From Gammaproteobacteria bacterium (GTDB taxonomy: Bacteria > Pseudomonadota > Gammaproteobacteria > Poriferisulfidales > Poriferisulfidaceae), in the NCBI GenBank assembly GCA_028819565.1, contig JAPPLD010000029.1, forward strand, positions 1 through 34,997: DNA of 34,997 bases. Reading direction: 5' to 3'. Position 1 is the stretch's first letter. Every line of letters starts with the position of its first letter. The notes beneath the pieces were generated by a model. The model was not told the origin of the DNA. It saw only the letters and a list, made by a program, of their open reading frames with translations, and did no database searches. The translations under genes and the position numbers were made by a program. Of this stretch, positions 2,184 to 32,819 are shown in pieces.

Positions 2184-2950
2184 GATCGAACTCCTTTGAG
2201 TGCCTGAGATGCCGCCTGCGACAAAAACAGGGTGTCCACTCCGATCCCCACCAGGGTGAACCCCATATCAATGTATCGGGACACCACGTCCGGCGCAATC
2301 CCGAAAATGCCCGGAATCTTGCCTACTTCCTGGCAGACCTCCAAGACTTCGGCAATTGCTTCTTGTACCGCCGGATCGTTCACTTGGCCCGGGATGCCCA
2401 TGCTTGTAGACAGGTCGTAGGGCCCGATAAACAGCACGTCCACCCCCTCCACGGCGGCCAGATCCCGGACGTTTTTCACTGCGTCCTTATGTTCGATCTG
2501 GATCACCGTCAGTAGTGAATCGTTTGCCTGAGCCAGATAAGTCTCGAATTCCGCCCCGTAACGGTGCGCGCGAGCGATGCCGACGCCTCGTTCGCCCTGG
2601 GGTGGGTACTTGGCATAATTGACGACCTGTTCCGCTTGCGCAACCGTATTGACCTGAGGCGCAATGATTCCGCTCGCTCCGACGTCCAGCATCTTCTCGA
2701 TCCAAGTCTCCTCGTGCACCGGGATTCGGACCAGGCAAGGCGTCCGGTCTCCTGTGGCCTGGATAAGAGATTCGACGGCAAGCGGGTCATGCGTACCATG
2801 TTCGGCATCGATGAACAGCCAGTCGAATCCGGTATCGCTCAAAATCTCTGCGGCCTGAGGACTGTTGAGGCTGACGATCGTGCCAACCAGCACTTCGCCG
2901 GCGCAGGCCCGTCGGCGAAAACCGTTTTCGCAAACCAGCGGACCGCTCAC
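2180..2950 (-). CDS. HpcH/HpaI-family class II aldolase/citrate lyase-like protein
   Basis: This family performs metal-dependent retro-aldol cleavage of 2-keto-3-deoxy acids to pyruvate plus an aldehyde. Known members are 4-hydroxy-2-oxoheptanedioate aldolase and 2-keto-3-deoxyrhamnonate aldolase. The 256-residue length is normal. Family signatures are the [11 protein letters not shown] segment near residues 43-53, the Glu metal ligand in [10 protein letters not shown], and the Asp ligand in [15 protein letters not shown]. Translation starts at GTG 2950, which overlaps the rpiA stop as GTGA, and the stop overlaps the next start as ATGA. The three genes are therefore translationally coupled. 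The exact substrate cannot be read from the sequence; coupling to rpiA suggests sugar or sugar-acid metabolism, but this is inference. Confidence 0.9.
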
Positions 2951-3600
2951 GGCAGCGACTCCACGCCTTGATCGGTCCCGATCAGTAACACATCCGCGCC
3001 GCGCCGGGCAAATAATCCGACCGTGACCACTCCAGGAATATCGTTCAAGGTATCTTCCATTTTCGGGGGATCCAGAATTTCAAGGTTATGGACATCCAAG
3101 ATGCAGTTGCCGTGGTCGGTCACAAAGCCTTCGCGCCACTCTGGCATGCCGCCATGCTGGACCAGTTCGCGCGCCACCATGGAACGCGCCATCGGAATGA
3201 CTTCAACCGGCAAGGGAAAAGCGCCTAAACGATCCACTTGCTTGCTATCGTCAATGACGCAGACGAAAGTTTCGCTGCATTCGGCGATGATTTTCTCACC
3301 TGTCAGCGCGCCGCCACCGCCCTTGATAAGGCTGCGGTGCCGCGTCGCTTCATCAGCCCCGTCCACATACAGACGCAAGGGCCCGACCGTGTTCAAATCC
3401 ACCACCGGGATGCCAATCTGGCGCAATCGCTCGGTGCTCGCCTGCGATGACGATACGGCGGCATCGATCTTGCTTTTGACGGAGGCCAGCGCGTCGATGA
3501 AGAAATTGACCGTCGAACCCGTCCCGACTCCCAGTACTTCGCCCGGCTGAATGTAATCCAATGCGGCTTCCGCCGCTTTTCTCTTCTTATCGTCGCTCAT
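2947..3600 (-). CDS. rpiA: Ribose-5-phosphate isomerase A
   Basis: RpiA interconverts ribose 5-phosphate and ribulose 5-phosphate in the non-oxidative pentose phosphate pathway. The 217-residue protein shows the phosphate-binding [15 protein letters not shown] near the N-terminus. It also shows the catalytic region [26 protein letters not shown] and the C-terminal [23 protein letters not shown] block. Length and motifs match E. coli RpiA. It is the first gene of a leftward operon with the HpcH-type aldolase and the thioredoxin-like gene. The left end of the TnpB element begins only 25 bases upstream of its ATG (3600), so its promoter must lie within or beyond that element. Confidence 0.96.
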
Positions 3601-3664: not shown

Positions 3665-4996
3665 ATGAAAGTCCACCGCGCCGTTCGTTACCGTTTGCAC
3701 CCCGGTTCTGCATGCAAGAACCGGCAATTGCACGGTACCGCCGGAGCCTGCCGGTTCGTCTGGAACCATATGGTCGGGAAACTCAGGGACGAGTATGAAG
3801 CGTGGGGCACCTGCAACTTCTCCTATATGTCCACGAAAAATATCCCGACGCCGGGGCTGGGCCGGACTTTCACGGTACTTAGGAAGCACAGTTACCCGTG
3901 GTTGCAGGGCTACTCGGCATACATCGTCAAGAGTTCGCTGCAGCCCATCGAGAGAACCTACAAGGCGTTCTTCAAGGACTTGGAAACAGGCGGGAAGTTG
4001 AATCGCAAGCCCCCGCAGTTCCACAACAAGTGGACGACCACGCCTTCGTTTCCGATCAACTACCAATCGGCAAAGGTGGCGAGAGAAAGCCTGTACGTGC
4101 AGAAGGTCGGCTGGATGAAGCTGGTCGGCACCAACCCATACCCGAACGGCGAATTCAAGTCTGGCACGGTCAAGTACGAATGCGGCAACTGGTACGCCTA
4201 CCTGATGTACGAAGTGGAGGCGCAGGCCAGTCTTCCCCATTCCATCAAGGAAGTAGGCATCGACCGCAATGTGGCGGAAGGTCGACTGGCGGTGCTGTCG
4301 GACGGGACGAAGCACAGCGGGCCGGACCTGGAGAATAAGGTGGCCAAACGCAAACGGTATGAGCGGTCAATGGCGCGCAAGCGTGAGGTCTACTGGGAAG
4401 ATCAAAAGAATCTCTGCGGGCCGAAGCCTCAAGGCCGCCCGCGCTATCAACCCTCCAAACGGTATCTGCGGACCCAACTCAGGCACCAACGGGCTTGCGC
4501 GGCGGAACGCTTCGCACGGAAGAATTGGGGGCACCACGTCAGCAAGGACATCGCCTCCGAATACGATGTCGCCTACATGGAGAAGTTGAACATCCGGGGC
4601 ATGACGAAATCGGCCCGGGGCACGAAAGAGAAACCCGGCAGGCACGTGAAATCGAAATCCGGCCTGAACCGGCAGATTCTGGCCAGCGCATGGGGCACGC
4701 TGGAGTTGTGCCTGAACTACAAGATGGAAGTCCGCAAGGTGCCTCCGGCGTACACCAGCCAGACCTGCCATTTATGCGGGCATGTCGACAAGGACAGCAG
4801 GAAGAAAACAGACTTCAAGTGCACCGCTTGCGGGCACGCGGACGATGCGGACGTAAACGCCGCGTTGAACATATTGGCCTTCGGGAATGGGGCTGCTGGA
4901 CGTGGAGGTGGCGACACCGGCGGGGCATCCTGCCACAGTCGGCCTGGGAAGCGTCAAGAAATGGGCAAAGAATCCCTTTCGGATTTTGCTACATAA
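3665..4996 (+). CDS. tnpB: TnpB-family RNA-guided DNA endonuclease (IS200/IS605 accessory protein)
   Basis: The 443-residue protein has the TnpB layout. The N-terminal part is a wedge/REC-like region (YRLHPGS... [11 protein letters not shown]). The C-terminal part is a split RuvC nuclease. The three catalytic acidic residues are all present: D200 in VGIDRNV, E306 in [10 protein letters not shown], and D396 in [10 protein letters not shown] zinc ribbon sits between motifs II and III, with C368, C371, C386 and C389. Characterised relatives (ISDra2 TnpB) cut DNA next to a short TAM, guided by an RNA made from the element's right end. The gene looks uninterrupted. The last codons (DFAT, stop at 4994-4996) lie inside the right inverted repeat. 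No ribosome binding site is evident before the ATG. Confidence 0.92.
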
Positions 4997-20795: not shown

Positions 20796-21875
20796 CTACT
20801 CTCCGGCCAGCCAAGCATTGAATCGCTCGTTCAACTCATCCAGATGATCCGCCCAGAACTCCGTATCCTGCCAGATCCCCGTCTTCATGTTGTCCGGCGA
20901 GGTCGGCAGGTGCGGGATCATATCCAGTTCGGAATTGGCATGGTAGGTGTCAACCATTTCAAGAGCGGAGCGCCGAGCCGGCGCATAGGAGATCCATGAA
21001 GCCTGGACGGCCATGTTTTCAGGCATGGAGGCAAATCTTATGAAATCCAGTGCCAGTTCCAGATTCGGAGCTCCTTTGACAATCGCCCAATTGCCGAAGT
21101 CAAGTATCTGCGCATCCCAGACGATGGCTAGGGAACGGCCCTCCAGCGCGTAGGCATTAAAGACCCGCCCGTTGTAGGCCGTGCTCATGACCACTTCGCC
21201 GTCCGCCAACAACTGCGGCGGCTGGGCTCCCGCCTCCCACCACACGACCTGATCCTTGACGCCATCCAGCCGCGCAAAGGCGCGATCAACCCCCTCCGCG
21301 GTCGCCAGTACCGCATAGATTTGGTCCAGGGGAACCCCGTCCGCCGCCAAGGCCATCTCCAGATTGATCTTGGGGCTCCGACGCAGGCCACGCCGACCGG
21401 GAAATTTTTCCAAGTCGAAAAAGTCGCGGATGGTCGTCGGCCCAGGCGACAGTCGGCTTCGGTCGTAGGCAAAGACCATTGCCCCCACGACGGTTCCGAT
21501 CATGCAGGAGCCAATCCCTCCCTCAAAAAAATCCTGTTCGGCGGGAGCCCCGTCTGGCGCCGGGGGCAGGGTGGAGGAATCAATCTCCTCGAGCAGGCCC
21601 TCGTCGCAGGCCAGAAGCCCCTCGGCGGAATCGAGGTCCACCACATCCCAGGTCACGTTGCCGGCAAGGACCTGCGATTTGATCTCAGACACTCCTCCGT
21701 TGTAGTCTTCGGACAAGATCCGGTGGCCGGTGCGAGCCATCCATGGCTTATGGTAAGCCTCCACCTGGCTCTTGGTATAAGCGCCGCCCCAAGAGACCAC
21801 AGTCAAGTCACCCGCCAAAACATCCGGTGCTGCAAGCCACGTCCCCGCGGCAAGAAAAAGAGCAGAGAATCTCAT
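20796..21875 (-). CDS. PotD-like extracellular solute-binding protein, copy 2
   Basis: This periplasmic binding protein (about 359 residues) has a signal peptide beginning MRFSALFLAAGTWL, cleaved after VLAG. The mature protein starts DLTVVSWGGAYTKSQVEAYHKPWM, the N-terminal beta strand of PotD-like proteins. Family landmarks shared with its paralogs are VDLDSAEGLLACDEGLLEEID, FFDLEKFPGRRGLR, GAQPPQLLADGEVVMSTAYNGR and QASWISYAPARRSA. A GTG at 21905 overlapping the upstream stop (GTGA) is an alternative start, but it would add acidic residues before the signal peptide. It lies between copy 1 and the PotB-type permease. The ligand is probably a polyamine or related cationic compound, by family only. 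Confidence 0.9.
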   Translation of the reverse strand: MRFSALFLAAGTWLAAPDVLAGDLTVVSWGGAYTKSQVEAYHKPWMARTGHRILSEDYNGGVSEIKSQVLAGNVTWDVVDLDSAEGLLACDEGLLEEIDSSTLPPAPDGAPAEQDFFEGGIGSCMIGTVVGAMVFAYDRSRLSPGPTTIRDFFDLEKFPGRRGLRRSPKINLEMALAADGVPLDQIYAVLATAEGVDRAFARLDGVKDQVVWWEAGAQPPQLLADGEVVMSTAYNGRVFNAYALEGRSLAIVWDAQILDFGNWAIVKGAPNLELALDFIRFASMPENMAVQASWISYAPARRSALEMVDTYHANSELDMIPHLPTSPDNMKTGIWQDTEFWADHLDELNERFNAWLAGE

Positions 21876-21901
21876 TGGCAACCATGCTTCCGCCACCTCG
21901 C

Positions 21902-22978
21902 TCACTTGATCAGCCAGGCATTGAAGCGTTCGTTCAATTCGTCAATATGGTCTGCCCAGAATTCCGCATCGTTCCGAATCGCCGTCTTCATGTTGTCCGG
22001 CCAGGTGGGAAGGTGCGGTCCCATCTTCAAGTTGGGGTCGGCGTGGTAGCTCCCGACCCGTTCGGAGGCAGACCTGCGCGCGGGCGAATAGGAAATCCAC
22101 GAAGCCTGGACGGCCATGTTCTCGGACATGGAGGCAAACCGCAAGAAGTCCAGGGCCAGTTCCAGGTTCGGGGCTCCTTTCACGATCGCCCAGTTGTCGC
22201 CCGCCAGGACCTGCGCGTCCCAGACCATGGAGAGCGGTTGGCCTTCTGCCGCAATCGCATTGAAGATGCGGCCGTTGTAGGCCGTGCTCATGACCACCTC
22301 ACCGTCGATCAGCAGTTGCGGCGGCTGAGCGCCCACCTCCCACCACAAGACATGCTCCTTGATGCTGTCCAGCTTGGCAAAAGCGCGGTCGATTCCCTCC
22401 GGGGTCGCCATCACCTCGTAAACCTGGTCCGCCGGGACGCCGTCGGCCACCAGCGCCATCTCGAGGTTGACCCTGGGAGTTTTGCGCATGCCGCGCCGGC
22501 CCGGAAACTTCTCCAGGTCGAAGAAGTCCCGAATGGTGCTCGGAGGCGGCAACAATCGCTCCCGGTTGTAGGCATAGGCCGTCGACCAGACGACGGTGCC
22601 AATGGCGCAGTCGCCGAGGGTGCCCTCAAGAAAATCCTCTTCGGCGGGCGTCCCGTCCGGGGCTGCAGGCAGAATGGCCGGGTCAATCTCTTCGAACAGC
22701 CCTTCGTCGCACCCCAGAATGGCTTCGGCATCCTCGACATCCACGATGTCCCAGGTGACGTTGCCGGCCTCGACCTGCGCCTTGACTTCGGACAGGCCGC
22801 CGCTGTAGTCCTCGGATAGGATCCGGTAGCCGGTGCTGGCCATCCACGGCTTGAAATAAGCCTCGGTCTGGCTCTTGGTGTAGGCGCCACCCCAGGAGAC
22901 GATGGTTAGATCGCCCGCGGATGCAGTCGTTGCCGCGAAACAGAGGCCTGCAGCATAGAGAAATGCGAAAGGCTTCAT
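21902..22978 (-). CDS. PotD-like extracellular solute-binding protein, copy 1
   Basis: The 358-residue protein has a signal peptide (MKPFAFLYAAGLCFAATTASA, cleavage before GDL). Its mature sequence is very close to copy 2 and closest by eye to the orphan copy at 31.7-32.7 kb. Shared blocks include WGGAYTKSQ, CDEGLFEEIDPAILPAAPDGTP, FFDLEKFPGRRGMRK and IKEHVLWWEVGAQPPQLL. The ATG at 22978 has GGGGGT just upstream. It follows the ATPase gene by 27 bases and precedes copy 2, so it is the first binding protein of the operon. Confidence 0.92.
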   Translation of the reverse strand: MKPFAFLYAAGLCFAATTASAGDLTIVSWGGAYTKSQTEAYFKPWMASTGYRILSEDYSGGLSEVKAQVEAGNVTWDIVDVEDAEAILGCDEGLFEEIDPAILPAAPDGTPAEEDFLEGTLGDCAIGTVVWSTAYAYNRERLLPPPSTIRDFFDLEKFPGRRGMRKTPRVNLEMALVADGVPADQVYEVMATPEGIDRAFAKLDSIKEHVLWWEVGAQPPQLLIDGEVVMSTAYNGRIFNAIAAEGQPLSMVWDAQVLAGDNWAIVKGAPNLELALDFLRFASMSENMAVQASWISYSPARRSASERVGSYHADPNLKMGPHLPTWPDNMKTAIRNDAEFWADHIDELNERFNAWLIK

Positions 22979-23005
22979 GGTTACCCCCAAATTGAACGAA
23001 CTTCG

Positions 23006-24088
23006 TTATGGTAGTGCATCCAGCGCACGACAGTCCTCGGTGTTCCAACTCACCTGGGTTTCCTGACCGGCCTTCAGATGCTGGTGATCCGGCGCGTTCG
23101 GCATCTTGACAATGAAATCGTCATGTCCCAGCACCCTCATACGGCAACGAATGTGGTCGCCAAGATAAATCAATTCCTCCACCACCGCATCAAACCGGTT
23201 TTCCCCCGTATCACCGATGAATACCCGCTCCGGTCGAATCGACAACGTGGTCGGGGTGCCGACCCCGCTGCAGTTGATGGCCAGCGCCCGGCCCTGACCC
23301 ATATCTTCGATCGAAACCTCGGCCACGCCATTGTCGACACGTTCAACCCGACCGTACAGCCGGTTGTTCTCTCCAATGAAGCGCGCGACAAATGCCGTCT
23401 CCGGACATTCATATAGCGTTTCCGGGCCGGAATCCTGCTGGATGGAGCCATCCTTGAACACGGCAATCCGAGTCGACATGGTCAACGCTTCGGATTGATC
23501 GTGCGTCACATAGACGACGGTCACGCCCAACTGGTCGTGCAGGCGCTTGATCTCGTACTGCATGTGCTCGCGCAACTGACGGTCCAGCGCCCCCAAAGGC
23601 TCATCCATCAGTACCAGTTCCGGTCGAAACACCAAGGCACGGGCCAGCGCGGCGCGTTGCTGCTGTCCGCCCGACAGCTCGGACGGGCGGCGATTGCCGA
23701 ACCGCCCCATCTCCACCATCTGCAATGCCTCGCGCACTCGTTCCTCGATTTCGGAACGCCCCATCCGACGCACCTGCAGCGGAAATGCAAGATTCTCGTT
23801 TACCGTCATATGCGGGAACAAGGCGTAATTCTGGAATACCACGCCGATGCCCAGTTGGTGCGGAGGCACGGAATTCACCGAGCGGCCGTCGAGACGGATC
23901 TCTCCATGCGTGACGGTCTCGAATCCGGCCAACATCATCAGGCTGGACGTCTTGCCCGAGCCGGACGGCCCGAGCAGGGTCATGAATTCACCGCGGGGGA
24001 TGCTCAGGTTGAGGTTCGCAACCGCCAGAGTCTCACCGTCATAGCTTTTCTGAACCTGATCGAATTCTACGAATGCAGTATCCGTCAT
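23006..24088 (-). CDS. PotA-type ABC transporter ATP-binding protein
   Basis: The 360-residue ATPase energises the leftward transporter. Walker A is GPSGSGKT (40-47), the Q-loop lies in VVFQNYALFPHMT, the signature is LSGGQQQRAALARAL, and Walker B is LVLMDEPLGALD, followed by VTHDQSEALTMS. The C-terminal ~120 residues form a TOBE-type regulatory domain (FIGENNRLYGRV..., IRPERVFIG...). That domain ends with IRCRMRVLGHDDFIVKMPN. The ATG at 24088 has GGAG eight bases upstream. It is the first gene of the five-gene operon ATPase-SBP-SBP-permease-permease. A decayed fragment of a second copy of its 3' end lies near 32.8 kb. Confidence 0.93.
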   Translation of the reverse strand: MTDTAFVEFDQVQKSYDGETLAVANLNLSIPRGEFMTLLGPSGSGKTSSLMMLAGFETVTHGEIRLDGRSVNSVPPHQLGIGVVFQNYALFPHMTVNENLAFPLQVRRMGRSEIEERVREALQMVEMGRFGNRRPSELSGGQQQRAALARALVFRPELVLMDEPLGALDRQLREHMQYEIKRLHDQLGVTVVYVTHDQSEALTMSTRIAVFKDGSIQQDSGPETLYECPETAFVARFIGENNRLYGRVERVDNGVAEVSIEDMGQGRALAINCSGVGTPTTLSIRPERVFIGDTGENRFDAVVEELIYLGDHIRCRMRVLGHDDFIVKMPNAPDHQHLKAGQETQVSWNTEDCRALDALP

Positions 24089-24373
24089 GATCGGCACTCC
24101 CGATGCCGGCAAACCCCTCTTGGTTTCGTCCCGCGGGTGCCGGAGAGAACACTCCCCTGCTTCAATCTCGCGGCAACCCGCAGTCCGAGGAAAACGATTC
24201 GTTTTATTCTACTAGACGCGAAGCAGGCAAACCCTAGGGTGGCATCTGACGACCCCCGGTCGCCATAAAACATTCATCTTATTTTTATGCTCCTGTCATG
24301 CGCATCTGCGAATCTAGCCATCAAGAAGTCCGGAACCCAAGGGCAAAGGGTTGTATGTTTCCTGATTGAAAGG

Positions 24374-25318
24374 TCAGGGCTTTCGCTTTTGACCCGCATG
24401 GCCCGGCTTCCTTGAGCTGCACCAGTATCGTCCGACATCCTCCGCATACAGACGCCAGCAATGGGCTCTCTGAGGGTTGAAGCGCCCAAAGTTACTGGGG
24501 TGGAAGGTATGAAGCCAAAGGAATAGCTTTCCGTCCGGCTCGAGTTCGATCAGGCCAGTTTGGTAGCAAGCGTCCCGTTGGTACCGACGACGATCGCTCT
24601 TCACGGTCCGCTCTTCAGGCCGTCGGACATCATAGCTCTTTCGAATCGCGTCCCTTGCCGGGTCGCCTTGCGTCACGACCACATCCGGCTCCAGAATGCG
24701 TAGCTCTCCCGGAATGAAACGGCGGCAGTTCTCGAACAACGTCGAATCAGCCCGCTTTCTACCGGGCTTGTTCTGGCAGCACTTCGCGCTGTTCACGTGT
24801 GCGAAGTGGAGACGCGTGTCCTCAATCGTGAGATGCGGCTTGAACTGGCAAAGTAGATCAAAGGCCATTTGATGGGTGCGGTACCAGTGCAGGTTCTTCG
24901 GAAGCGCCTCCACGTCGCAATCAAGAGCCTGCCTGCGGACGGCTTCGACGGTGCGTTGCTGCCGATCCGGGTGACCTCTGCCGGAGTCCAGCGAGAGAAA
25001 AAGCAAGCGCGGGAGCGTTCCCTCTTCATAGCGTGGACCCACGAAACTCGCCTTGGCTTCCGTGAATTGCGGGGCTTTTGCCGAGCATACCGCACGCGAA
25101 GAACAGCGAAAGCCAATCGATGATATTCCACGCAAATCATAGAACTCGGCAAGCCGTTTGCCAAGGGAGATTTCATCCTGTTCTATTTTTGTTCGAAACT
25201 TTCTCTGGGCATCTCCGACTTTTTCTAAATTCCTCAGATGTGCTGCTCTTTCTTCCTTTGTCCAATCCATAAATTCTCCAGGCTTGACCTCTTTGGTCTC
25301 TTCCTTTTCTTCAAGCAT
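24374..25318 (-). CDS. Divergent uracil-DNA-glycosylase-superfamily protein
   Basis: I do not know this exact family, but the ~314-residue product shows UDG-fold landmarks in order. LPRLLFLSLDSGRG (103-115) corresponds to the first active-site loop. FAHVNSAKCCQNKPGR...LFENCRRFIPGELRILEPDVVVTQGDPARDAI (172-224) matches the NxVKC...C...L..L.P..I...G..A pattern of family 4/5 UDGs. TFHPSN (271-276) matches the catalytic HPS motif. Cysteines C72, C78, C180/C181 and C198 could hold an iron-sulfur cluster as in thermophilic UDGs. An N-terminal ~65-residue charged helical region is extra. ATG 25318 has GGGGG upstream; 25330 is possible. It is monocistronic. Confidence 0.65.
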   Translation of the reverse strand: MLEEKEETKEVKPGEFMDWTKEERAAHLRNLEKVGDAQRKFRTKIEQDEISLGKRLAEFYDLRGISSIGFRCSSRAVCSAKAPQFTEAKASFVGPRYEEGTLPRLLFLSLDSGRGHPDRQQRTVEAVRRQALDCDVEALPKNLHWYRTHQMAFDLLCQFKPHLTIEDTRLHFAHVNSAKCCQNKPGRKRADSTLFENCRRFIPGELRILEPDVVVTQGDPARDAIRKSYDVRRPEERTVKSDRRRYQRDACYQTGLIELEPDGKLFLWLHTFHPSNFGRFNPQRAHCWRLYAEDVGRYWCSSRKPGHAGQKRKP

Positions 25319-25527
25319 GTGAACCCCCATCTGTGGATGTGGACCTCAGTGCTACCGGAATCAGCTGCAGAATCAAGAGTAAAAGGCTCCTATTTGGAGT
25401 GAGCATTATAGTGCTGCTTCTTAGCCCCGAACGCGCCCATGTCGTAGGCACCCCGGGAAGAATAAAGGCAGATCTTCCTTCGCCGGGAGCACGGCGACGC
25501 GACACGAAAGTCGAGCCTCGGACCGGT

Positions 25528-26079
25528 TCAATCTTCCCCGGGGCGGGATGCCCCTTGCCAAAATCGTTCCGGCTGCCCGTATTCCCTGGCCAGCGTCCGC
25601 GCCAGAACAAACAGCAGGTCCGACAATCGGTTCAGGTAGACCCGCGCCGTTTCTGGCAAATCATCCAGCGCGACCACCCGCCGTTCGGCACGTCGGCAGA
25701 CCGCACGCGCCACATGGCATTGCGCCGCCTCGACGCCCCCACCCGGAAGGACGAATTCCTCAAGCGGCGGCAACGCGGCATTCAGTTCCTCGGTCCAGCG
25801 TTCCAGTTGGGCTGATTTCTCTTCACCTTTCCACTCCAACTTTCCCTGCGCAATGATTGCGCCCAGGTCGAACAGGTCCTGCTGCACCTCTTCGACCCGC
25901 CGACAGGCCTCTGCACCCGCCGCCAAGGCGAGCAGCAACCCCAATTGGCAGTTGAGTTCATCGACTGCACCCAATGCTTCGATTCGTGGATCGTCTTTTG
26001 ACAATCGGGCACCTCCCGCAAGGCCCGTCGTCCCATCGTCCCCGCTTCGGGTCGTTACGCGCGAGATGCGGTAGGCCAT
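25528..26079 (-). CDS. pduO: PduO/MMAB-type cob(I)alamin adenosyltransferase
   Basis: This enzyme attaches the 5'-deoxyadenosyl group of ATP to cob(I)alamin to make coenzyme B12. The 183-residue protein has the family N-terminus RVTTRSGDDGTTGLAGGARLSKDDPRIEALGAVDELN (7-43), which includes the ATP-binding TRxGDxGTT motif. It also has the helical core FVLPGGGVEAAQCHVARAVCRRAERR (~115-140) and YLNRLSDLLFVLAR. It follows the bcp gene by 9 bases, apparently in one transcript with cysG. No B12-dependent enzyme is in the window, and no cobalamin riboswitch was seen upstream. Confidence 0.95.
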   Translation of the reverse strand: MAYRISRVTTRSGDDGTTGLAGGARLSKDDPRIEALGAVDELNCQLGLLLALAAGAEACRRVEEVQQDLFDLGAIIAQGKLEWKGEEKSAQLERWTEELNAALPPLEEFVLPGGGVEAAQCHVARAVCRRAERRVVALDDLPETARVYLNRLSDLLFVLARTLAREYGQPERFWQGASRPGED

Positions 26080-26088
26080 GTCCGAACC

Positions 26089-26613
26089 TTATCGGAAGCC
26101 ATCCAAAACGGCGATGACGTCCTGAGCGTGCCCTTTTATGGGCACCGTCCTCCAGATGTGGCGGATAATGCCTTCCGGGTCGATCAGGAAGGTCTGGCGC
26201 TTGGCATACGCCGAACCCGGCACCCTACCTTGCGCACCGTAGCGCTCGGCGACCCTTCCCTCCGGATCCGACAGCAGCGTGAACGGCAGGCCGTATTTGT
26301 TGATGAATTTCTGGTGGTTGTCCGCATTGTCTATGCTGATTCCGACCACCTTGGCGTTCCGCTTGTGGAACGGCACGATCTCGTCTCGAAATGCACAGGC
26401 TTCCATGACACAGCCCGGTGTGTTGTCTTTCGGATAGAAATACAGCACCAGCCACTGCCCGTAATAATCCGAAAGGTGATGGGGCACCCTGTTCTCATCG
26501 GTCAACGTGAAGCCGGGAGCCGGCATGCCCACTTCCAGGAATTCGGGGGTCGGTGGCGTACTCAACCCCAGCATGGTCAGGCTCCGGCGGAGCCCCGACA
26601 GGAAGCCGTTCAC
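26089..26613 (-). CDS. bcp: Thiol peroxidase of the BCP/PrxQ type
   Basis: This family reduces H2O2 and organic hydroperoxides using thioredoxin. The 174-residue protein contains GQWLVLYFYPKDNTPGCVMEACAFRDE (~residues 55-81), with the peroxidatic Cys in TPGC and the resolving Cys five residues later (C-x4-C), as in PrxQ. Also present are VVGISIDNADNHQKFINKYGLPFTLLSDPEG, KRQTFLIDPEG and the C-terminal KGHAQDVI. The GTG at 26613 is chosen because GAGAGG lies seven bases upstream. The longer frame (TTG 26700) overlaps cysG and adds unrelated sequence. The start lies 73 bases after the cysG stop and the end is 9 bases before pduO. Confidence 0.93.
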   Translation of the reverse strand: MNGFLSGLRRSLTMLGLSTPPTPEFLEVGMPAPGFTLTDENRVPHHLSDYYGQWLVLYFYPKDNTPGCVMEACAFRDEIVPFHKRNAKVVGISIDNADNHQKFINKYGLPFTLLSDPEGRVAERYGAQGRVPGSAYAKRQTFLIDPEGIIRHIWRTVPIKGHAQDVIAVLDGFR

Positions 26614-31667: not shown

Positions 31668-32744
31668 TCACTTGAGCAGCCAAGCGTTGAACCGTTCGTT
31701 CAGTTCGTCGATCCGGTCCGCCCAGAATTCCTTATCGTTCCAAACTGCGTTGCGAATGTTGTCCGGTGCGGTCGGCATGAGCGGGCGCATGTCCAGCCCC
31801 GGGTCGGCATGATAGGCACCGATCATCGCAGACGCGGAGCGGCGCACCGGCGCGTAGGAGATCCACGAAGCCTGCACCGCCATATTCTCCGATGCAGAGA
31901 CGAACGCCAGGAAATCCAAGGCCAGTTCCATGTCCGGCGTATCCTTCACGACCGCCCAACTGTTGACCGTCAACACCTGCGCGTCCCAAACCACCTCCAG
32001 CGACTGTCCTTCCGCTACGGCTGCGTTGAAGATGCGTCCGTTGTAGGCGGTACTCATCACCACCTCGCCATCCACCAGCAGTTGCGGAGGCTGCGCCCCG
32101 GACTCCCACCATACGACGTGCTCCTTGATGGTGTCCAGCTTGGCAAAGGCGCGGTCCACCCCCTCCGGAGTCTGCAACACCTCGTAGACTTTCTCCGGCG
32201 AGACACCATCGGCAACCAACGCCATCTCCAGGTTGGCCTTGGGAACCTTGCGCATGCCACGTCGACCGGGGAACTTCTCCAGATCGAAAAAGTCACCGAT
32301 CGTGGCTGGCGCAGGCGATAGTCGTTCCCGGTCGTAGGCGAACACTGTTGACCACGCGATGGTGCCGACCGCGCAGTCGCTGATCGTGCCTTCGTAGAAG
32401 TCCTCCACGGCTGGAGTGCCGTCTGGCGCCGGCGGCAGGATGGCGGGGTCGATCTCCTCGTGCAATCCTTCGTCACAGCCCAGCAACACTTCGGCGGCCT
32501 GGGAATCCACGACGTCCCAAGTCACCTGGCCAGCCTGGACCTGCGCCTTGATTTCGGCAAGCCCACCGTTGTAGTCTTCGGACAGGATGCGGTGTCCGGT
32601 CTTGGCCATCCACGGCTTGTGATAGGCCTCGATCTGGCTCTGGGTGTAGGCGCCCCCGAAGGAGACCACGGTCAGTTCGCCCGCTGACGCAACGCTCGCC
32701 GCGAGACCCAAGGCCGCAGCGTAAGGAAACAAGTGAAATTTCAT
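31668..32744 (-). CDS. Orphan PotD-like solute-binding protein, copy 3
   Basis: The 358-residue protein has a signal peptide (MKFHLFPYAAALGLAASVASA, cleavage before GEL). Its mature sequence is strikingly similar to copies 1 and 2, with the same GGAYTQSQIEAYHKPWMAKTG, CDEGLHEEIDPAIL, FFDLEKFPGRRGMRK and AYNGRIFNAAVAEGQ blocks. It ends NERFNAWLLK, as copy 1 ends NERFNAWLIK. No permease or intact ATPase adjoins it. The ATG at 32744 is chosen over the longer frame because the signal peptide begins there. It probably works with the 18-24 kb transporter or is a relic of a second one, since a truncated ATPase lies just upstream. Confidence 0.92.
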   Translation of the reverse strand: MKFHLFPYAAALGLAASVASAGELTVVSFGGAYTQSQIEAYHKPWMAKTGHRILSEDYNGGLAEIKAQVQAGQVTWDVVDSQAAEVLLGCDEGLHEEIDPAILPPAPDGTPAVEDFYEGTISDCAVGTIAWSTVFAYDRERLSPAPATIGDFFDLEKFPGRRGMRKVPKANLEMALVADGVSPEKVYEVLQTPEGVDRAFAKLDTIKEHVVWWESGAQPPQLLVDGEVVMSTAYNGRIFNAAVAEGQSLEVVWDAQVLTVNSWAVVKDTPDMELALDFLAFVSASENMAVQASWISYAPVRRSASAMIGAYHADPGLDMRPLMPTAPDNIRNAVWNDKEFWADRIDELNERFNAWLLK

Positions 32745-32819
32745 AATGGCATCCCAAAAATGTCTCAGATGAATGGCATTTCTATGGTGCCACATTCTAG
32801 GACGGCAGTCTCAGGCATT

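Follow-up and report, generated by a model that had tools for sequence, protein, structure and literature searches.

The window, a stretch of 34,997 nucleotides from contig JAPPLD010000029.1 of a gammaproteobacterial genome (1.80 Mb, 31 contigs), contains a gene for a protein of the uracil-DNA glycosylase (UDG) superfamily, P0001, which is flanked by housekeeping genes and present as a single copy in its own genome. An earlier note on this DNA had given its coordinates correctly as 24374-25318, and the strand, absent from that note, is the minus strand. An alternative in-frame ATG 12 bases upstream of the start would yield a protein of 318 aa; the shorter form of 314 aa is preferred because a G-rich stretch lies upstream of its ATG at 25318. 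The genome encodes five PF03167 proteins in total, P0001 included. Two of the four further UDG-superfamily proteins found in the 1.8 Mb (L003-L006), L004 and L006, score under every NCBIfam cut-off, and PF03167-type matches were also identified in the congeners, at least four in each of four of the five and two in the remaining, 76%-complete one. The gene and the features of its product, for which P0002 is the sole homologue found, are:

24374 to 25318, minus strand: gene of P0001, 314-aa UDG-superfamily protein (ATG at 25318, stop at 24374-24376)
25139 to 25318, minus strand: charged N-terminal extension, residues 1-60, unconserved in P0002
25085 to 25105, minus strand: first cysteine pair C72-x5-C78, candidate Fe-S ligands, identical in both members
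25022 to 25039, minus strand: residues 94-99 (GPRYEE), the less favoured of the two motif A placements suggested by alignment
24980 to 24994, minus strand: proposed motif A, S109-L110-D111-S112-G113, aligned with GEAPG/GLAPG, with D111 in third position (register unproven)
24902 to 24979, minus strand: residues 114-139, lying between motif A and the region of P140; compared with family 4, about 18 residues are inserted here (alignment A6, below)
24770 to 24793, minus strand: motif-3 region N176-SAK-C180-C181-Q-N183, from alignment with families 4 and 5
24725 to 24727, minus strand: C198, aligned with the fourth Fe-S cysteine and invariant in A6
24491 to 24502, minus strand: motif B, H273-P274-S275-N276 (HPNN in P0002), from alignment

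P0002 (L001:5898-6764) is encoded on a 10-kb contig of a Chloroflexi MAG and is 62% identical to P0001; it was retrieved by a genome-contig scan with exact octapeptides, which detects close relatives only. Five of its neighbours belong to unclassified families without a Pfam or PADLOC match, and the sixth is an ankyrin protein. Over the core (residues 56-302, 246 codons) the two proteins are 67% identical, with 50, 49 and 114 differences at the first, second and third codon positions and NG86 values of dN 0.23 and dS 1.15 (dN/dS of about 0.2). Thus, the core of P0001 is under purifying selection. The charged N-terminal extension described in the earlier note exists in P0001, where the first 60 residues contain 15 Asp/Glu and 13 Lys/Arg, but it has no recognisable counterpart in P0002: over the first 55 residues no conservation was recognisable, and NG86 dN is about 1.0 over the 34 alignable codons. 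All motifs listed previously were found in P0001 (LFLSLDSG at 106-113, AKCCQ at 178-182, ENCRRF at 196-201, LEPDVVVTQG at 209-218 and HPSN at 273-276), the last of which is replaced by HPNN in P0002.

Membership of P0001 in the UDG superfamily, as proposed in the earlier note, was borne out by sequence profiles. PF03167 matched P0001 with 24.1 bits (E 4.1e-5; gathering cut-off 24.3), or 24.9 bits in the genome search, and P0002 with 21.8 bits (E 2.1e-4). The P0001 score thus lies at the cut-off and does not clearly exceed it. The two-sequence profile of P0001 and P0002 aligned to 50 family-4 UDGs from viral contigs with an hhalign score of 45.6 (E 1.6e-6 for a single comparison), compared with 22.4 for the best of 100 column shuffles and 17.5 for the reversed profile. 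With 29 family-5-type UDGs (the L013 group, which we take to be family 5, UDGb, from its motifs), the score was 57.8 against a shuffle maximum of 22.7 and the match extended to motif B; this set is biased, as its seed L013 had been found with the same two-sequence profile, and the score drops to 46.4 once L013 and its nearest relatives are removed (leaving 24 of the 29 rows, with the cut made at 62% identity to L013). On these grounds, a closer relationship with family 5 was rejected, and since 46.4 stands against 45.6 for family 4, P0001 appears to be about equally near to both families. Significant similarity spans the middle of the protein, together with motif B in the case of family 5, and no significant match was obtained over motif A.

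No NCBIfam, PADLOC or PHROG model matched P0001, and P0002 matched the family-4 NCBIfam models weakly and far under the cut-off (15.3 and 14.5 bits, the former to TIGR00758, which has a cut-off of 125.3 bits and did not match P0001). A phmmer search of P0001 against PDB sequences returned a chance methyltransferase match and nothing else. By the PF03167 E-value, the dN/dS of about 0.2 relative to P0002 and the hhalign score of 45.6 versus a shuffle maximum of 22.4, P0001 is a real gene and the original observation is confirmed beyond chance.

For structure prediction, AlphaFold2 on the two-row alignment of P0001 and P0002 gave no usable model (mean pLDDT 31.9). An alignment of both proteins with 50 family-4 rows (A6) yielded a model of residues 67-303 with a pLDDT of 66.9 and a pTM of 0.68. 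Its best Foldseek matches were the family-4 structures 4zby and 4zbx (E 1.1e-4 and 1.6e-4), followed by UdgX and human TDG. VIA-align superimposed the model on 4zby with a Z of 13.9 and an rmsd of 3.6 over 174 residues, and on structures of human TDG, presumably a family-2 enzyme, with a Z of about 10, and its first 50 fold matches included no UNG row; matches in a viral library were weaker and mixed, comprising UDGs and phage DNA polymerases. Because 50 of the 52 input rows are family-4 UDGs, the model is compatible with the UDG fold and does not constitute independent proof of it. The earlier note had named a predicted structure lacking this fold, or homologues lacking the cysteines and HPS, as findings that would count against it. 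Neither was encountered, although the homologue, which keeps the cysteines, carries HPN for HPS, and the fold comparison is not an independent test.

Eighteen columns of A6 are invariant in the 50 family-4 rows, and P0001 retains seven of them (G113, N176, C198, P211, G218, H273 and P274), whereas the 11 others, including the stacking Phe, are altered, with the losses mostly in the N-terminal half. In common with family 4 (UDGa, TIGR00758), P0001 has the Asn of the (T)N..KC element, the third and fourth cysteines, the strand region of P211 and G218, and the His-Pro of motif B (H273-P274), which is present in both members. N176 falls on the Asn that reads the base in family 4, and C180/C181 fall on the third Fe-S cysteine. 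R187 aligns with the water-positioning Asn of family 4, N89 of Thermus UDGa. N183 resembles the Asn of the NKP element that follows the third cysteine in family 5, with which P0001 also shares HPS in motif B. Six cysteines are identical in P0001 and P0002 (C72, C78, C180, C181, C198 and C287), which is compatible with a candidate four-cysteine [4Fe-4S] cluster. The first pair is indeed CxxxxxC, as noted previously, in contrast to C-x2-C in 46 of the 50 family-4 rows and in all 29 family-5 rows, and the second pair has near-canonical spacing, with 16 residues between C181 and C198 and 15 in the family-4 row L021. The four-cysteine, putatively metal-binding cluster raised in the earlier note is therefore plausible.

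The first active-site loop, motif A, can be placed in two registers. Alignment with the full-length query puts GPRYE at motif A, a global alignment and a trimmed query put SLDSG there, and queries trimmed to begin at residue 96 or 100 put another residue again at this position. In ungapped 11-column scoring with family 5, PRLLFLSLDSG ranks first in both members at 1.57 bits, which is below the 95% shuffle level of 3.14, and the next candidates score -5.24 and -4.52; longer family-5 windows placed motif A inconsistently. The corresponding family-4 scoring ranks AKASFVGPRYE first in P0001, without significance. The choice of SLDSG as the motif A register is a judgement that we consider quite likely to be correct, because RLLFL is more strand-like and identical in both members. 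If this register is right, D111 would sit where family 1 has its catalytic Asp.

In either register, motif A differs from those of families 1, 4, 5 and UdgX, and the unusual first loop reported in the earlier note is thereby upheld. Neither candidate corresponds to GE(A/G)PG, present in 50 of 50 family-4 rows, an invariance partly built in, as GE[AG]PG was part of one of the two patterns of the scan that supplied these rows, nor to GLAP(G/A), present in all 29 family-5 rows. P0001 further differs from family 4 in its Cx5C pair, the insertion of about 18 residues after motif A and the lack of an aligned stacking Phe. The best fold matches of the model, which was built with family-4 rows, are to this family. 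If SLDSG is motif A, the Leu in its second position is shared with family 5, in contrast to the third position, where family 5 has Ala and P0001 has Asp. This Asp would be shared with family 1 (UNG), again only if the register holds, whereas the GQDPY motif of that family is absent from P0001; UNG is also not known to have Fe-S cysteines. UdgX resembles P0001 in its Fe-S UDG fold, as predicted by the model, and in a changed third motif A residue; its KRRIH loop and GEQPG motif A (PMC10359453) are present in neither P0001 nor P0002.

Searches with P0001 or the two-row profile covered overlapping sets of genomes (369 from the class, 398 from the phylum, two sets of 396 and 400 surrounding the genome that encodes P0002, and 55 relatives) and identified no true member besides P0001 and P0002. 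One weak candidate (L008 in G599) was rejected as its match, on our reading, overlaps an AraC-like ORF and contains a stop, and two weak matches to the middle of the profile (L013 in G926 and L014 in G858) are ordinary GLAPG-type UDGs. Furthermore, tblastn against plasmids and phages gave no match, and scans of viral contigs with P0001, alignment A1 and P0002 returned no relative. P0001 is thus very rare among the genomes searched, as a putative UDG-superfamily glycosylase with a divergent first active-site loop. The suggestion in the earlier note of an undescribed branch is reasonable, given the lack of NCBIfam, PHROG and PADLOC matches to P0001 and the single homologue found. A literature search pairing SLDSG with uracil returned no match, and searches for new UDG families returned no description of this branch, neither of which is proof of absence. 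P0001 probably represents a new branch close to both family 4 and family 5.

By profile search, the gene is absent from all five congeners (completeness 76-98%). Comparison with the same site in a congener delimits the following segment:

24234 to 25498, no strand assigned: segment of about 1.26 kb not alignable to the congener at the same site (breaks at 24233/25499 versus L109), carrying the P0001 gene alone

The segment is slightly wider relative to L110 and L111. In all three congeners examined at this site, short sequences not fully alignable to 24234-25498 take its place; the matching flanks are separated there by gaps of about 54 to 278 bp and are colinear at 82-93% DNA identity, comprising potA-like, cobalamin adenosyltransferase and, presumably, peroxiredoxin-like and siroheme-synthase-like genes. 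Across all four congeners compared, the intergenic region between the potA-like and cobalamin adenosyltransferase genes (24113-25527) differs in both its length and its content and constitutes a small variable spot. GC3 of the P0001 gene is 0.60, compared with 0.67-0.80 for four neighbouring genes. No convincing integron or transposon ends or repeats were identified at the segment, Rfam gave no match over 23900-26200, and a promoter and terminator scan remained near chance level. Horizontal acquisition by its own lineage is the simpler reading of this distribution, with parallel loss in the congeners as a possible alternative.

Taken as a whole, the interpretation in the earlier note is partly supported. 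The reading that we favour, with moderate confidence, is that P0001 is a monofunctional DNA glycosylase of the UDG superfamily, from the Fe-S (family 4/5) side and with an active-site loop of its own, encoded by a single, horizontally acquired gene. In Thermus UDGa, N80 forms a hydrogen bond with the base, N89 positions the water and H155 stabilises the base as it leaves (PMC5387724). P0001 has N176 at the place of N80 and H273 at that of H155. The enzyme would bind DNA and flip out a deaminated or otherwise modified base, the edge of which may be read by N176, a residue seen in the alignment, as it is by the equivalent family-4 Asn. The attacking water would be activated or positioned by N183, by D111 if SLDSG is motif A, or by both, and N183, whose NKP setting is similar to that in family 5, may take over the task of N89. 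H273 may stabilise the leaving base while the HP[S/N]N loop, likewise seen in the sequence, would occupy the space left in the DNA, and C72, C78, C180 or C181, and C198 would hold a structural Fe-S cluster. The resulting abasic site would be passed to repair enzymes of the host. P0001 has lost the GEAPG glutamate by which the family-4 pocket is tightened, suggesting a substrate range other than plain uracil. Since UDG-like proteins are now known to cut modified bases from phage DNA (PMC11078745), an acquired UDG of such rarity is also a candidate for acting on an unfamiliar substrate.

More tentatively, and with clearly less confidence, we hypothesize that P0001 represents a new UDG family that combines an Fe-S, family-4/5-like scaffold with a family-1-like Asp as the third residue of motif A (SLDSG), the site being completed by N176, N183 and H273. 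If the SLDSG reading is true, P0001 would be the naturally occurring equivalent of the QD swap that was engineered in Thermus UDGa. Its pocket, open and bearing an insertion, would suit a modified base, possibly one from a phage. Asp at this place in a natural Fe-S UDG would make the matter directly testable.

A role as an anti-phage glycosylase that, like Brig1, excises a hypermodified base from invading DNA, rather than in host repair, appears rather unlikely. Brig1 is described as a UDG-like protein in phage defence that cuts modified bases from phage DNA, specifically alpha-glucosyl-hmC, and shows that the fold is capable of such activity (PMC11078745); for a further defence glycosylase, Brig3, a pocket for 5hmC is described (PMC13160076). 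Compared by description only, P0001 shares with Brig1 a predicted UDG-like fold and an accessory distribution, being a single, patchily distributed gene. Moreover, most members of the genus have four other UDG-superfamily genes, so that repair alone does not require P0001, and in one congener a PD-Lambda-5 pair is immediately followed by another, different gene of the UDG fold. However, Brig1 homologues often occur in defence islands (PMC11078745), and the P0001 gene apparently does not: the scans of the window revealed no adjoining defence gene, and PADLOC matched neither P0001 nor P0002 nor the five tested neighbours of P0002.

The congener locus (L112, G1145:C1:284500-290500) encodes PD-Lambda-5_A (180-1529) and the methyltransferase PD-Lambda-5_B (1550-2416) on the plus strand, followed 68 nt further on the same strand by a UDG-superfamily protein (2485-3162; PF03167 29.7 bits, no PADLOC match), which shows no similarity to P0001. 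A base-excising partner of PD-Lambda-5 at this locus is a possibility.

We consider it unlikely that P0001 belongs to family 5 (UDGb) or family 4 (UDGa) as a divergent enzyme for ordinary repair of deaminated bases, with its odd motif A resulting from drift. The equal profile similarity to both families (46.4 versus 45.6 without L013 and its close relatives) and the NKP-like and HPS parts, which resemble family 5, are consistent with such an enzyme, but P0001 has neither the motif A nor the Cx2C pair nor the stacking Phe of these families, and at motif A and the cysteine pair it carries the same residues as P0002. A non-catalytic UDG-fold protein, acting in nucleic-acid binding only or in redox or iron sensing through its cysteines, is very improbable: the loss of the family-typical motif A and the charged N-terminal extension are consistent with it, but both members, under purifying selection, retain N176, N183, H273 and D111, the candidate for activating the water, Pfam finds no fused sensor domain, and the retained catalytic residues together with this selection favour an enzyme over the nucleic-acid-sensing protein suggested in the earlier note, for which no evidence was found.

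Elsewhere in the window, a TnpB-like protein is encoded on the plus strand (3665-4996), with Cas12u4 and Cas12f as best PADLOC matches, which we take to be probably an IS200/IS605-type remnant or element. Three similar solute-binding proteins are encoded on the minus strand, two of them adjacent (20796-21905 and 21902-22990) and the third about 9 kb away (31668-32795); they presumably belong to a putative spermidine/putrescine-type ABC transporter, and their DNA cross-matches at 71-76% to the copies of relatives.
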